From Hydrogenimonas urashimensis (lineage in GTDB: Bacteria; Campylobacterota; Campylobacteria; Campylobacterales; Hydrogenimonadaceae), in the NCBI RefSeq assembly GCF_016593255.1, contig NZ_AP023212.1, positions 1,830,501 through 1,894,500 on the forward strand: a stretch of DNA of 64,000 nt. The letters are read 5' to 3'. The position numbers and the translations under genes are program-made. Numbering within the stretch: position 1 is the first letter of the stretch; every line of letters begins with the position of its first letter. The notes below the pieces were generated by a model. That model was not told the DNA's origin. It was given only the letters and a program-made list of their open reading frames with translations, and did not search any database. Positions 10,058 through 36,335 of this stretch are shown here, piece after piece.

Positions 10058-10908
10058 CGGCGCTTTTTCTGCTTTTTCTTTTCGCGCTTTTTCTTGTGCT
10101 CTATCCTTTTTATGTCGTCTCGAAGCAGATATCAGGCTACAGGGAACCGATCGAGAAAACTCCCGCCCAATGGGGTGCCTCTTTTGAAAATATCGACTTC
10201 GTGACCGACGACGGTCTGGTTTTGAAAGGTTGGTGGATACCGGGCAAAGGTCGGAAGGCTGTCATGCTTCTGCACGGCAAATCGGGGAGCCGCAATGGAT
10301 ACCACAGCGGCATCTTCGACCTTGGACAATGGTATCACAGCCGGGGATACCACGTGATGATGGCCGATATGCGTGCCCATGGAGAGAGTGGGGGAAAATA
10401 CGTCTATTTCGGTGTCAGGGAGTCTTGCGACATGCTCGGATGGCTGCGAAAGATCGATCCTTTGGGAGAATACCGGTGGGTGTTGCACGGCTTTTCCCTG
10501 GGGGCCGTGACAGCGATGATGATGCTAGAACGCGAACCCGCACTTTTTGGGAAGGTCGTGGCCGATGCACCGTGGATCGATTTCGAGATGCTCGTAAAGA
10601 GCGAACTCAAAAAGCGCGCTCATCTGCCCCCTTTCACCTACCCCTATGTGGCGTGGATCGCGCAGAATTTTTTTGGACAGGATTTCAGGGCCGCGGACAA
10701 CAGGGGGCGTTGCCGCAGGCTGTGCGGCCGGCCGATTCTCTATATCCGCGAAGAGGAGGATGCGCTGCTTCCGCCGTGGCACTGGAGGCTGCTGGAGAGG
10801 GCGTGTCCGCAAGCGAAAGTGGCGCTTTTTGAAGGGGTGGGGCATGTGGAGGCTTTCACGGAGTGTCCCCGGCGCTATACGAAACTTCTAGAAGCGGAAG
10901 GTCTGTGA
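10054..10908 (+). CDS. Alpha/beta hydrolase, membrane-anchored
   Basis: 284 residues from the ATG overlapping the alr stop. An N-terminal transmembrane helix (LFLLFLFALFLVLYPFYVV) anchors a serine-hydrolase domain. Visible elements are the oxyanion-hole strand MLLHGKSGSR, a DMRAHGESGG loop, the nucleophile elbow HGFSLGAV (catalytic Ser) and the C-terminal histidine in EGVGHVEAF; an acid residue in REEEDALLP completes a plausible triad. This resembles the YqkD/FrsA-like hydrolases often encoded next to unrelated genes; the substrate is unknown. Its 3' end overlaps the convergent cytochrome gene by 21 bases. Confidence 0.85.
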   Translation: MTALFLLFLFALFLVLYPFYVVSKQISGYREPIEKTPAQWGASFENIDFVTDDGLVLKGWWIPGKGRKAVMLLHGKSGSRNGYHSGIFDLGQWYHSRGYHVMMADMRAHGESGGKYVYFGVRESCDMLGWLRKIDPLGEYRWVLHGFSLGAVTAMMMLEREPALFGKVVADAPWIDFEMLVKSELKKRAHLPPFTYPYVAWIAQNFFGQDFRAADNRGRCRRLCGRPILYIREEEDALLPPWHWRLLERACPQAKVALFEGVGHVEAFTECPRRYTKLLEAEGL

Positions 10909-12048
10909 CGTCAGCGGTTTGAATCCCGTCACTTTTTTTTCGGTGATGCCGAGCTTTTTTGCCGCCTTGGGGTTGACGATGTACAAACCGAGAGTCACCT
11001 TCACTTCATCCCCTTTTTTTACCCGAATGCCCGTGTCGAACGTTTTTGTCGAGGAGGCATCGATGCCCTTGCTCTTGAGCACGGTGTCGGCGATCCACGG
11101 CATCGCCGGTTTTCCCTCTTTTCCAAGCACCGTGTAGAAGTTGATCGGTTTGGGTCTGATAATCTTTCCGTCGCGACGGATCGTGACGCGCAACTGTCCC
11201 AGCCTGAGCGGATGGGTGAAAAGTTTGTGGATGGAGTGGTTGACGACCGTCACGTTCAGATGACTACGCTTTGCGGATGCTTTGAGCGTCACGGCTTTTT
11301 TCAGAAGATTCAGGTGATGATGGGGGCCTGCGAATCCATGGTAGGTATGGGTTTTGCTCTTTTGGATCGTCGAATACGAACCCGGGACTTGAGGCATATG
11401 GCAGGCGATGCAGTTGTGTTTTTTCGGATCGTTTTCCCTGATGTTCATCGAACAGATGGTAAAACCGTGACTGTTTTGTTTGTGGTCGTGGCATCCGAGG
11501 CAGATATGGCCCGTAGAGAAGAGTCTGTTGCCGTAGTCGATCGTGTGAAACGGTGAGCCGGCGGTCGTTCTGCTCAGTCCGAAAAACGAACTCGTTTCAT
11601 GAAACTTGACCCGTTTTTCGATGGTTTTCCCCTCTTTGGCGGCATAAAAGTACTTTGGTGTCGGGTTGATGATGTTGCGATTCTGTTTGGCGTGGGTTTG
11701 GACAGAGCGTATACGGTGGCAGTAGGCGCAACCGATGGGCTCCTCTTTTTGGATGAGACTGCCGGAAGGCATCGCGGATTCGCCTTTTTCAAGCGCTTCG
11801 ATAACTTTCGTGTCGGAAGGGGTGTGGCAGACGGCGCAGTTGTATCTCTTTTTGGCTTTTAAGGGGTGTTTTTCCCAGATCTTCCGGTGAATGGGATCGT
11901 TGGCGACAGAAGCGTTGCGGTGCATCGATTCGCTGTACTCTTTGTAGATGAGAGGGTGGCATTTTGCACAGACTTTCGATGCGACGAACGTTTGATTCGC
12001 CCAGGCGGCGCAGGTGAGAAAAAGGGCGAGAAAAAGGGGGCGGATCAT
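10888..12048 (-). CDS. Pentaheme c-type cytochrome with C-terminal beta domain
   Basis: 386 residues with a signal peptide cleaved near AWA-NQ. Five CXXCH heme sites are present: VCAKCH (27-31), NCAVCH, GCAYCH, ICLGCH and NCIACH, with free histidines between them that could be axial ligands. The heme region resembles the cytochrome c554 family. From about residue 250 there is a heme-free region rich in beta strands. The same order is seen in the protein at 20044-21255. A role in periplasmic electron transfer or reduction of a nitrogen or sulfur compound is plausible but not shown. A perfect FNR/CRP-type palindrome lies upstream (12103-12116), pointing to oxygen- or signal-dependent control. 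Confidence 0.88.
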   Translation of the reverse strand: MIRPLFLALFLTCAAWANQTFVASKVCAKCHPLIYKEYSESMHRNASVANDPIHRKIWEKHPLKAKKRYNCAVCHTPSDTKVIEALEKGESAMPSGSLIQKEEPIGCAYCHRIRSVQTHAKQNRNIINPTPKYFYAAKEGKTIEKRVKFHETSSFFGLSRTTAGSPFHTIDYGNRLFSTGHICLGCHDHKQNSHGFTICSMNIRENDPKKHNCIACHMPQVPGSYSTIQKSKTHTYHGFAGPHHHLNLLKKAVTLKASAKRSHLNVTVVNHSIHKLFTHPLRLGQLRVTIRRDGKIIRPKPINFYTVLGKEGKPAMPWIADTVLKSKGIDASSTKTFDTGIRVKKGDEVKVTLGLYIVNPKAAKKLGITEKKVTGFKPLTSQTFRF

Positions 12049-12073
12049 GGTGCTGTCCTCGTTTTTTGGATGA

Positions 12074-12116
12074 ATTCTATCCGATTACGCTTTCATCTTT
12101 CTTTGATCGACATCAA
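12074..12116 (-). promoter_or_regulatory. Predicted FNR/CRP-family-controlled promoter of the pentaheme cytochrome gene
   Basis: The 14-mer TTGATCGACATCAA at 12103-12116 is an exact TTGAT-N4-ATCAA palindrome. On the minus strand a TAGAAT -10 occupies 12079-12074, with the palindrome centre 35.5 bases from its last base, placing the site near -42. That is the class II activator position for CRP/FNR proteins. The porin promoter has identical spacing. Confidence 0.7.
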
Positions 12117-12175: not shown

Positions 12176-13390
12176 TCAATCGGTCTGGTCTTTCAACCTG
12201 AAAGAGGTCGTGAAAGCGATTAGAAGCGTAAGTGCGGTGACGCCGTAGAGGAGGGTGTAGCCGCCGAAATGGAGCAAAAATCCGCCGAGAATCGAGAAAA
12301 ACATCCCGAGGGAGACGATATTCATCTGCACCGCCACATAGAGGGGTCGTTTCGCTTCGGGAGCGAGAATGAGGATAAGGTTGGAACTGGCGATACGGCT
12401 ACCGTCTCCGGCGGCGCCGAAGAGGAAGAAAATAATCCCGTATGCGATGAGCGTATCGGCGAAAAAAGCCAGTCCCACGGCAACAAGTTTGAGAAAGATG
12501 CTGAACGTCGCGATGAAGCGGTAGCGTCCGAGACTTCCCAGTCTGCCCCACAGCACGTTGCTGATCATGGCGCCGACCATCTGGACGGTGATGAGAATAC
12601 CCACCTCTTTGCCACCCAGATGAATGGTCTCCTTGGCGTCGAGAATGACAAAAGGCATGGCGATGAGGTACCCGTAGGCGAGCAGAAAGGTCACTATCTG
12701 CACCTGAAGCTGCCTATCCACTTTCACAAGCGAAAACGCATGGCGCAGAAAGCCCGTGAACGACTCTATTTTCGTCTCGAAACGGGTTTTGACCGGTTCG
12801 TCGACGGTGGCGAAAGCGAGGAGACCTATCCCCATCAAAAGGGCGCTGAGAATGAAGAGGTAGCCGAAATCGTAGGGGGCTTCGAACCGCTCCAGAACCC
12901 ACGCCGCCACGGCGCCGCTGATAAGGGCTCCCAGGCCCGAGAAGAACTGCCGCCACGCCATCGTCTTGCCGCGGAACCGGTGGGAAAAGATCTTGGCGAC
13001 GATCTCTCTGAAATAGATCGCGCCGAAACCGGCGCTGAAGGAGAAGAGAAAGAGTCCGATGCCGATGCACCAAAGCGTCAGGGTCGGATGGCTCTTTCCG
13101 AAAAGAAGGATCGCTACGCCGATCATGAACCACGAAAGGAAACGGAAAGCGAAGACACGCCGCAGGTAGGGAAGCATGCGGGCGTAGTGCTGGGCTTTGT
13201 AGGCGGCGAAAAGCTGCATGAGCACCGCTCCCCCGCGCAGCAGACCGCTGAAGAAGCCGATCAGTACGGAGGAGCCCCCGAAATAGTTGATCATCAGCGG
13301 CAGAATGGTGGCGGGTTCGGCGATGGTGGTGCCGACGGAGAGAAAGAAGCCGTGGAGAATGTTTTTGATATGGTTGGAAAATTTATCCAT
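12176..13390 (-). CDS. Major facilitator superfamily transporter
   Basis: About 404 residues forming roughly 12 hydrophobic helices with no signal peptide. An MFS-type loop (FRGKTMAWRQFFSGLGA) follows the first helices, and the C-terminal half contains a glycine-rich loop (LWGRLGSLGRYRFIA). Start ATG 13390 (MDKFSNHIKN) is chosen because an alternative at 13444 lacks a conserved N-terminus. It follows the TrpD2-like gene on the same strand with a 65-base gap. The substrate cannot be assigned from sequence. Confidence 0.82.
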   Translation of the reverse strand: MDKFSNHIKNILHGFFLSVGTTIAEPATILPLMINYFGGSSVLIGFFSGLLRGGAVLMQLFAAYKAQHYARMLPYLRRVFAFRFLSWFMIGVAILLFGKSHPTLTLWCIGIGLFLFSFSAGFGAIYFREIVAKIFSHRFRGKTMAWRQFFSGLGALISGAVAAWVLERFEAPYDFGYLFILSALLMGIGLLAFATVDEPVKTRFETKIESFTGFLRHAFSLVKVDRQLQVQIVTFLLAYGYLIAMPFVILDAKETIHLGGKEVGILITVQMVGAMISNVLWGRLGSLGRYRFIATFSIFLKLVAVGLAFFADTLIAYGIIFFLFGAAGDGSRIASSNLILILAPEAKRPLYVAVQMNIVSLGMFFSILGGFLLHFGGYTLLYGVTALTLLIAFTTSFRLKDQTD

Positions 13391-13455
13391 GGCGGCTCGC
13401 TGAGATGGGCAATGTGGGGAAGAAACGAATGTCAAAGGCGCCAAGGGAACGGGAG

Positions 13456-20043: not shown

Positions 20044-21255
20044 ATGAAACGCAGGATCGTATTTGCGGTGAAACCGTTGATCGTTTTGTCGCTGCTCTCG
20101 TCAATATCGTCGATCCATGCCGATATTGAGGCAAGATATTCCGACAGTACCAAATGTAAACCGTGCCACAAAACGATTACACAGGAGTGGCAGAGCTCTT
20201 TGCATGCAAAATCGCACTTTTCCAAAAACGAACTTTACGCCAAACTACTTGGATATACCGCCAAAAAGAAGCATCAACCCGAATCGTGGATGGAAGTACG
20301 ATGTGCCCAATGCCACAACCCCCGGGTTCTTGATGCGGTGAATCAGAAAAATATCGACATGGCGGGATTCGGATTCGATGAGGGGATCATCAGAAAAAAG
20401 ATGGGATCCTCTTTTATCAAAGACGGTGTCAACTGTATCGTATGTCACAACATCCAGACCGTCCACGACTCCGTAAATGCGGGAAAACGGGGCAAGGACA
20501 CCGTGGTCTGGGGAGCCAATGACACGATGGTGGGTCCATTCCCCGATGCCCGCTCCCCCTATCACAAAACCGCCTACTCCTCCATTTTCAAGGAGGAATC
20601 GAACAGGCTCTGCTTCGTCTGCCATTACAATGAGCGCAGTGCCTACGGGGTCGAAATCGGATCCACTGGCAAAGAGTATGAAAGCAGCGGCGACAAAACC
20701 CGGTGCGTGGAGTGCCATATGGGGCCTTCGGTGAAAAAACGGGCCGTTCAGGTGGATCTGCAGCGGTCGACATCACGAAAGGTGCGGACGCTTCGCCGCC
20801 ATCTTTTTGCCGGAGTGAGAAACAGCGATATCGTCTCGGAAGCCATCGACATCGATTACAGGAGAGTGGGACGCAAAATAACGGTACGGTTGAAAAATCT
20901 GATTCCCCACAAACTTCCCACGGGTTTTGGAGGACGGCTTTTGCGCATTTATCTGGTCTACAGGGACCAATCGGGTACAAAAATCGGAGAGGATATGTAC
21001 GATATCGGGGCGAAATATGCCGATAAAAAAGGAAAGGAGACGATCCCCCACCTCGCTGCCCGCATCCTTTCGGACAACCGGCTCAAACCCTTCTCTTCCC
21101 GGGACATCGTTTTCAGGGCACCCGAAAATTCCAAAAGTGCCGAAATTTTTCTCCAGTACTATCTGATGGCACCCGAGTGGCTGGAAAAACTCGAGGTTAC
21201 CGATCCTCTGTTTCGAAAAAAATACGATATCGCCTCGATGAGGGTGAAGTTTTGA
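20044..21255 (+). CDS. Pentaheme c-type cytochrome, paralogue-like to the one at 10888
   Basis: 403 residues from ATG 20044, preceded by GGAGAG. A signal peptide ends near IHA-DIE. Five CXXCH sites are visible: KCKPCH (38-42), RCAQCH, NCIVCH, LCFVCH and RCVECH. A cytochrome c554-like heme region is followed by a heme-free beta-rich segment, the same order as in the cytochrome at 10888-12048, although overall sequence similarity is low. Likely a periplasmic electron carrier or reductase; the substrate is unknown. The frame is open far upstream, but the start chosen is the only one giving a signal peptide. Confidence 0.87.
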   Translation: MKRRIVFAVKPLIVLSLLSSISSIHADIEARYSDSTKCKPCHKTITQEWQSSLHAKSHFSKNELYAKLLGYTAKKKHQPESWMEVRCAQCHNPRVLDAVNQKNIDMAGFGFDEGIIRKKMGSSFIKDGVNCIVCHNIQTVHDSVNAGKRGKDTVVWGANDTMVGPFPDARSPYHKTAYSSIFKEESNRLCFVCHYNERSAYGVEIGSTGKEYESSGDKTRCVECHMGPSVKKRAVQVDLQRSTSRKVRTLRRHLFAGVRNSDIVSEAIDIDYRRVGRKITVRLKNLIPHKLPTGFGGRLLRIYLVYRDQSGTKIGEDMYDIGAKYADKKGKETIPHLAARILSDNRLKPFSSRDIVFRAPENSKSAEIFLQYYLMAPEWLEKLEVTDPLFRKKYDIASMRVKF

Positions 21256-34923: not shown

Positions 34924-36195
34924 TTACATTTCAGAGTGGAATTTGTAGTCGAGCTGGACCCAGTATTTGGTAGTGTCAGTCAAACCGTAAACTTCTCGTG
35001 CAGGAACGCCGCCTTCCTGATACCACGCTCCTTTAAGAAGCAGACCAAGGTCTTTGGTGATTTTGTAGTTGTACGCAACATCGAATTCGCTACCCAGATC
35101 ATCATCGGATCGTGTACCGCTTTTGATATCATCATCGCCGCTGAAGATGTGATAGAAGCCGGTAATTTTACCATACTCACCAAAATTGTAACCGAGTTTG
35201 AAGATCAGATCTTCGAGACCTTCCTGCGGAGTACCGAGGAATTTGTCAGCCCATCCGTTGAATTTGTGGAGGGTAGCCAACGGCGTATTGAACGAAAGAC
35301 CTTTGTAATTTCCCGGACCGCCATCCGCTGCACCGAGCAATTCGTACGCGATTCCAGCGCTAAAGCCACTCATATTGCCATACAGACCGATGCGATAGTA
35401 GCTGGCATCGTTGTCATCTGTAACATCCGGGTTGTAGAGAGGCTCGTTGTCGTCGTCCATTGTCGGATCTTTCTGATAAGCGTATTCTGCTTCATAATTC
35501 AGTTTTACCGCATCAAGATCGAATTTACCTGTTGCGCGGATACCGATATGGTCCGCGAAGTTGGAGATCATATAATCGTAAACGGTGACATCCAATTCCG
35601 GCATGAATTTGTAGTTGGCATGCAGGAGCACACTGTTTGTGTCGAGATGAGCATCTACAACCTTGTTAACACGCGTTACATAGGCACCCAAAAGATTCAG
35701 GCCTTCCCAGTTGTAGATTGCTGCTACCAGGTCATAGGTTTGCGGCATTTGTCTCCAGCCGACGTTACCGATGAAACGGGCGTTGTCCAGAACGACCATT
35801 TTTCGACCAACGATACCGGTGAATCCTTCATAGGTATAGCTGATGTTGGCCTGAGTCATACGGCTTTGGCTGGGGTCTGCGACCTTTTCATAACCACTTC
35901 TTTCAGGAGCATAATCATGGATCAAACCGAAGTGGGAAACATCCATGCCCTGAAGTTGTGCATTCAGGCCGTCGACACCGAACAGACCCATTTTAACGCC
36001 GATAGCGGTACGCACTGTCAGTGCATTTGCCTTATCCAGGTTGTTCTGATCGACATCGACAAACTCGTATCGAGGGCGAATCTCGATGTCGAGCTGCGGA
36101 TTGCTGATAATTTCCTCGAGCATGCTTGCGCTTGCACCTGTGGTCGCTACTGTCGCTGCCATGGCTGCGACGAGGCTCATCTTGATTGTCTTCAT
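34924..36195 (-). CDS. Major outer-membrane porin, Campylobacterota type
   Basis: 423 residues from ATG 36195, with AAGGGAG upstream. The signal peptide ends near ASA-SML, and an LDIEIRPRYEFVDVDQNN start is followed by many amphipathic strands with aromatic girdles (FTGIVGRKMVVLDNARF, YNFGEYGKITGFYHIFSG), ending in an aromatic-rich strand WVQLDYKF. It resembles alginate-export/OprD-like porins of free-living Campylobacterota. It has a strong terminator, an elaborate 5' region (perfect inverted repeat, FNR/CRP-type site) and stands alone as a transcription unit, consistent with an abundant regulated porin. Solute preference is unknown. Confidence 0.85.
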   Translation of the reverse strand: MKTIKMSLVAAMAATVATTGASASMLEEIISNPQLDIEIRPRYEFVDVDQNNLDKANALTVRTAIGVKMGLFGVDGLNAQLQGMDVSHFGLIHDYAPERSGYEKVADPSQSRMTQANISYTYEGFTGIVGRKMVVLDNARFIGNVGWRQMPQTYDLVAAIYNWEGLNLLGAYVTRVNKVVDAHLDTNSVLLHANYKFMPELDVTVYDYMISNFADHIGIRATGKFDLDAVKLNYEAEYAYQKDPTMDDDNEPLYNPDVTDDNDASYYRIGLYGNMSGFSAGIAYELLGAADGGPGNYKGLSFNTPLATLHKFNGWADKFLGTPQEGLEDLIFKLGYNFGEYGKITGFYHIFSGDDDIKSGTRSDDDLGSEFDVAYNYKITKDLGLLLKGAWYQEGGVPAREVYGLTDTTKYWVQLDYKFHSEM

Positions 36196-36227
36196 TCTTA
36201 CTCCCTTTGAAGAATTTGGTTTAACCG

Positions 36228-36275
36228 TTCCGGTCATATCTATATATTTAAGAGATTATACAGATATGACCGGAA
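36228..36275. repeat. Perfect 14-bp inverted repeat in the porin 5' region
   Basis: TTCCGGTCATATCT at 36228-36241 and its exact reverse complement at 36262-36275 flank a 20-base AT-rich spacer. If transcription starts near 36286, the repeat forms a long stem-loop at the 5' end of the porin mRNA, 33 bases before the start codon. The spacer contains a second TATAAT on the minus strand (36260-36255). Confidence 0.85.
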
Positions 36276-36292
36276 TCTTTACGAAACCATCA

Positions 36293-36335
36293 ATTATACG
36301 CCGATCAAAAAAGCTTTTTCCTTGACATAAATCAA
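36293..36335 (-). promoter_or_regulatory. Predicted FNR/CRP-family-controlled promoter of the porin gene
   Basis: TTGACATAAATCAA at 36322-36335 differs from TTGAT-N4-ATCAA at one base. On the minus strand a TATAAT occupies 36298-36293 and the palindrome centre is 35.5 bases from its last base, exactly as at the cytochrome promoter (12074-12116). The predicted start is near 36286, inside the 5' edge of the inverted-repeat region. Confidence 0.6.

Follow-up and report, generated by a model that had tools for sequence, protein, structure and literature searches.

According to the portions of the literature available for the systems closest to the one described here, the regulators NssA, NssB and NssC of Wolinella succinogenes respond to nitrate, NO and N2O (PMC6682613), and the Nss sites of Nitrosophilus labii follow the pattern TTGA-N6-TCAA, with exact sites located 48-49 bases before the predicted napA, norE and nosB starts (PMC11539149). 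In pseudomonads, DNR binds TTGATnnnnATCAA (PMC1274295). A pentaheme cytochrome is not named as a target in those parts of the Nss and N. labii papers (PMC11539149, PMC6682613), and the pentaheme cytochrome c552 of Thermochromatium tepidum, here cited second-hand, has been assigned no clear role, with a link to sulfur metabolism suggested (PMC11976967). The sections of the Hydrogenimonas literature that were available yielded nothing on the regulator or the cytochrome treated below. Our analysis makes it highly likely that a dyad upstream of a Hydrogenimonas pentaheme cytochrome gene is a class II operator through which one Dnr/Nss-type regulator activates a cytochrome serving denitrification, together with a nap/nir/nor/nos regulon.

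The stretch analysed, in the following referred to as the window, comprises 64 kb. Its positions 10888-12048 encode, on the minus strand, an exported c-type cytochrome of 386 aa, and an MFS transporter gene, named from sequence resemblance only, is located upstream on the same strand (12176-13444). The dyad TTGATCGACATCAA occupies positions 12103-12116, reads TTGATGTCGATCAA on the strand of the cytochrome gene and is the sole exact TTGAT-N4-ATCAA match within the window, which bears out the exact site of the original prediction; of the perfect palindrome claimed there, both half-sites are indeed perfect, whereas the CGAC spacer between them lacks self-complementarity. A gap of 23 bases separates the dyad from the -10 hexamer TAGAAT (12079-12074, minus strand), and the distance of 35.5 bases from the dyad centre (12109.5) to the last base of this hexamer was the same upon recomputation. 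Based on the hexamer, transcription is predicted to start at 12067-12068 on the minus strand, which would place the dyad centre near -42 and its first base 48-49 bases ahead of the start, in agreement with the distance given for napA, norE and nosB of N. labii (PMC11539149). A plausible ribosome-binding site, GAGGAC (12055-12060, minus strand), lies six bases before the start codon at 12048, and the gene that follows encodes five CXXCH motifs, as had been claimed. A class II position near -42 upstream of a -10 hexamer is the classical activator arrangement, as established for E. coli FNR and CRP.

Within the window alone, the number of motif matches is only mildly improbable: TTGAYNNNNRTCAA has two matches where 0.39 are expected, and 7 of 100 shuffles reach two. 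What makes the dyad convincing lies beyond the window, namely its conservation at a fixed distance from the -10 hexamer and the recurrence of this spacing at other sites throughout the genome. The second site of this type in the window, TTGACATAAATCAA (36322-36335), is followed 23 bases further by TATAAT (36293-36298, minus strand) in the direction of a MOMP-like porin gene (34924-36237, minus strand; weak Pfam match below the cut-off, and the start codon may be positioned further inside), which is predicted from the sequence to be a member of the same regulon.

A pattern search of the genome, a single contig of 2.30 Mb, returned 29 matches to TTGAY-N4-RTCAA, compared to a single match to the reversed pattern. 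Since uniform base use alone would give roughly nine matches, some of the 29 are due to chance, and about half of them sit inside genes, have no suitable -10 hexamer and look like chance matches. Fifteen have a TAnnnT hexamer at 21-24 nt, where about 1.6 would be expected (background 2.7% per orientation), so that the search for further sites proposed in the original prediction gave a set at class II distance. With gene names taken from Pfam/NCBIfam where run and otherwise from sequence resemblance, and operon membership inferred from gene order, these sites precede a diheme c cytochrome (genome 337.7 kb), a small protein and a membrane protein (811.1 kb), a hemerythrin operon (816.7 kb), divergent genes for siroheme decarboxylase AhbAB and a CysG-like protein (822.9 kb), a norC/norB-nirS-pentaheme paralogue-nirC-nirF stretch (834.8 kb), a small gene (835.3 kb), napA (836.5 kb), a small c cytochrome (849.2 kb), a COX2-like and heme-copper oxidase pair (874.4 kb), another small c cytochrome (921.2 kb), a membrane protein with a CXXCH motif (1367.8 kb), the pentaheme cytochrome of the window (1842.6 kb), the porin (1866.8 kb, window 36322), nosZ (2042.5 kb) and a nosD-containing stretch (2045.4 kb). 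The fifteen look-alike sites probably turn on genes for nitrate and nitric oxide respiration, and because the switch of the five-heme cytochrome is one of them, this protein very probably belongs to the same pathway. The COX2-like and heme-copper oxidase pair (locus L049, 14432-16734; genome 874.4-876.7 kb), preceded by a dyad of its own, may be a non-canonical NO reductase. The CXXCH membrane protein (locus L057; genome 1365.8-1367.8 kb), whose site is followed by TATAAT at a distance of 23 nt, is a possible heme-based sensor within the regulon.

Three Crp-type HTH proteins were found in the genome, in line with the expectation that a regulator of the Crp/Fnr family would be present. One of these, a protein of 223 aa with a single cysteine, has its gene flanked by the nor stretch on one side and napA on the other (genome 835.6-836.3 kb), and it is the only one with an E-x-x-S-R recognition helix (PETLSR; TPETLSRIL), a signature missing from the corresponding helices of the other two, GTVRHVVNRHL and GSVRSVVTAQL. 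Its top-scoring relative in the PDB is DNR of P. aeruginosa (3dkw, E 5.7e-15), with which it shares a near-identical recognition helix (QPETFSRIM in DNR) and, as predicted here, the DNA consensus and targets among the nir, nor and nos genes; however, overall identity is low, and the two neighbouring N-terminal histidines of DNR are not conserved in the alignment. As in the Nss proteins of Campylobacterota (NssA/B/C and C. jejuni NssR) and in N. labii, as far as the available parts of these papers describe them, the regulator belongs to the Crp/Fnr superfamily with a Dnr-type DNA-binding domain, and its gene adjoins nap or nor (PMC11539149, PMC6682613); the likeness to these systems is one of domain, site and gene place. 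The regulator gene is flanked by three dyads, whose positions are the same in this genome and at 11 other congener loci and whose spacers change, which links the motif to this regulator.

TTGAT-N4-ATCAA is also the consensus of FNR, and the position would suit FNR as well as CRP, as established for E. coli. CRP, or a genuine FNR that senses oxygen by an Fe-S cluster, might hence recognise the site, in which case the cytochrome would follow anoxia or carbon state rather than nitrogen oxides. In FNR, four cysteines hold a [4Fe-4S] cluster, while CRP acts on TGTGA-type operators by an R-E-x-x-x-G-R helix. The one protein among the three that has an FNR/Dnr-type helix possesses a single cysteine and can therefore not hold an FNR-type cluster; the operator is not of the TGTGA type, none of the three helices matches that of CRP, and the remaining sites precede denitrification genes. 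We thus regard control by FNR or CRP as improbable. Of the oxygen- or nitrosative-stress sensor originally proposed, nitrogen-oxide control of the Dnr/Nss type is the better supported part, whereas the single cysteine leaves oxygen control, and the TTGAT-type operator control by CRP, without support. The PETLSR helix, the single cysteine, DNR as best match and the denitrification targets argue for a Dnr/Nss-type nitrogen-oxide regulon instead. From the site, its spacing and conservation, the look-alike promoters and the helix and location of the regulator, all read from sequence, we infer that this protein would sense a nitrogen oxide and, once bound to the dyad near -42, bring RNA polymerase to the promoter with the TAGAAT hexamer. 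This would turn on the pentaheme cytochrome and, with it, the nap, nir, nor and nos genes, those for siroheme and NO stress, and genes for further cytochromes.

The upstream regions of 12 Hydrogenimonas cytochrome orthologues, this genome included, were compared. Eight carry a dyad matching 9-10 of the 10 defined positions of TTGAY-N4-RTCAA, 22-23 nt before a -10-like hexamer (TAGAAT, TAAAAT or TACAAT-like) and 58-72 nt from the start codon, and the N4 spacers of these eight dyads are all different (GTCG, ATGC, GCCG, CCCC, GAAA, GCCC, CTGT and GCTC). In dinucleotide shuffles (500 trials), a mean of 0.24 and a maximum of three such upstream regions were obtained. An MFS gene, with a stop codon that can overlap the dyad, is found upstream of the cytochrome gene in several congeners as well; in this genome, the end of the MFS gene is about 60 nt farther away than in several of these, and the distance from dyad to -10 hexamer is unchanged. 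Thus, promoter geometry is what is kept. Beyond the genus, the dyad occurs in 16 of 31 homologues, each with TAnnnT at 21-22 nt (300 shuffle trials: mean 0.84, maximum 5), although these represent fewer than 16 independent events as several or many of the bearers are close kin. The presence of a regulator with a TTGAT-type helix and the conservation of both site and spacing strongly support the class II Crp/Fnr-superfamily site that had been predicted. Of the three refuting conditions named with that prediction, the two checked, lack of a Crp/Fnr-family regulator and lack of the site in close relatives, thus did not apply. Ahead of the cytochrome dyad of one congener (locus L017), a long run of near-identical CAATGAC-type units of about 7 nt was observed.

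Four of the 12 Hydrogenimonas orthologues have no dyad, and at least three of the genomes concerned still have the regulator. Three of the four form one clade in the tree, from which the fourth, a partial gene, is absent, and in three members of this branch (loci L022, L023, L024 and L031) a TTATAATAAGTATAAT-like sequence is located upstream of the cytochrome; regulation may have been rewired here. Some Hydrogenimonas genomes lack the gene for this cytochrome entirely. An attempt to correlate loss of the regulator with loss of the site within the genus gave no result, as the regulator is retained in almost every congener, and an order-wide search, in which 83 of 100 genomes had Crp/Fnr homologues, gave no clean co-occurrence test since such homologues are too widespread. 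The position near -42 before a -10 hexamer, common to 15 promoters in this genome, is the classical class II layout of an activator, and we deem it quite unlikely that the regulator represses here or that the site merely fine-tunes a promoter driven by another factor. Such a role would fit the branch that manages without the site and the negative relation between a nap-linked Crp/Fnr gene and nosZ expression that is suggested for N. labii in the available part of that study (PMC11539149). A chance match, as which the intragenic half of the genome matches may well be explained, is very improbable for the dyad itself, as its fixed distance to the -10 hexamer is conserved with variable spacers across the genus and beyond and recurs genome-wide.

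The cytochrome predicted to be regulated in this way has 386 residues with an N-terminal signal-like segment, and its closest named relatives are from Hydrogenimonas (Campylobacterota), the genus to which the genome is assigned on this basis. Its family profile matches the pentaheme c552 of T. tepidum (5ze8, E 1e-32), and in a Foldseek search with an AlphaFold2 model (pLDDT 87.5), 5ze8 was, among the matches listed, the only one with E < 0.001 (2.8e-19, TM-score 0.66). According to the model, the protein thus has the fold of the T. tepidum cytochrome with five CXXCH hemes, at about 20% sequence identity. Invariant histidines outside the heme motifs (H43, H168, H234, H237 and H274) would fit bis-histidine electron-transfer hemes, without proving them. 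NrfA, the pentaheme nitrite reductase, has an active-site heme bound by CXXCK. All five motifs of the present protein are CXXCH, its profile match to NrfA chains is weak and local, and NrfA is absent among the 50 Foldseek matches listed; it was therefore rejected as a candidate. Another multiheme cytochrome gene with 26% identity to the pentaheme one resides in the window at 20047-21255 on the plus strand and has no exact dyad upstream.

A distant paralogue of the pentaheme cytochrome (25-31% identity) is encoded in the nirS-nirF stretch of the same genome. In Sulfurovum-like loci, with genes named by their resemblance, the orthologue is divergent from a COX2-like/heme-copper oxidase pair (L088, L090, L094 and L102) or, at L089 and L095, from genes for a NirC-like cytochrome, a nirJ-like radical-SAM protein, a CobA-like protein and Crp/Fnr, and at L102 it is followed by nirF-like, paralogue and nirS-like genes. 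This neighbourhood of nir, NOR-like or Crp/Fnr genes in relatives ties the cytochrome to denitrification, to which its regulation and context point, unlike the sulfur metabolism suggested for T. tepidum c552. In denitrification, the protein would most likely carry electrons in the periplasm or act as a partner in handling N-oxides. More tentatively, and with somewhat less than even odds in our estimate, it might be speculated that the c552-like cytochrome is an as yet unrecognised component of denitrification in Campylobacterota, either a dedicated donor to cd1 nitrite reductase and the NOR-like oxidase or their NO- or hydroxylamine-handling partner, and that it is switched on by the Dnr/Nss regulator across several families.

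The kind of switch and system described here is already known, while the membership of this cytochrome in such a regulon was not found described in a limited literature search. Campylobacterota are important nitrate respirers at hydrothermal vents. Our analysis links denitrification control in this phylum to an unstudied multiheme cytochrome family whose sole solved relative has no clear role assigned, and it provides a predicted list of promoters for one regulator, which makes the role of the cytochrome directly testable.
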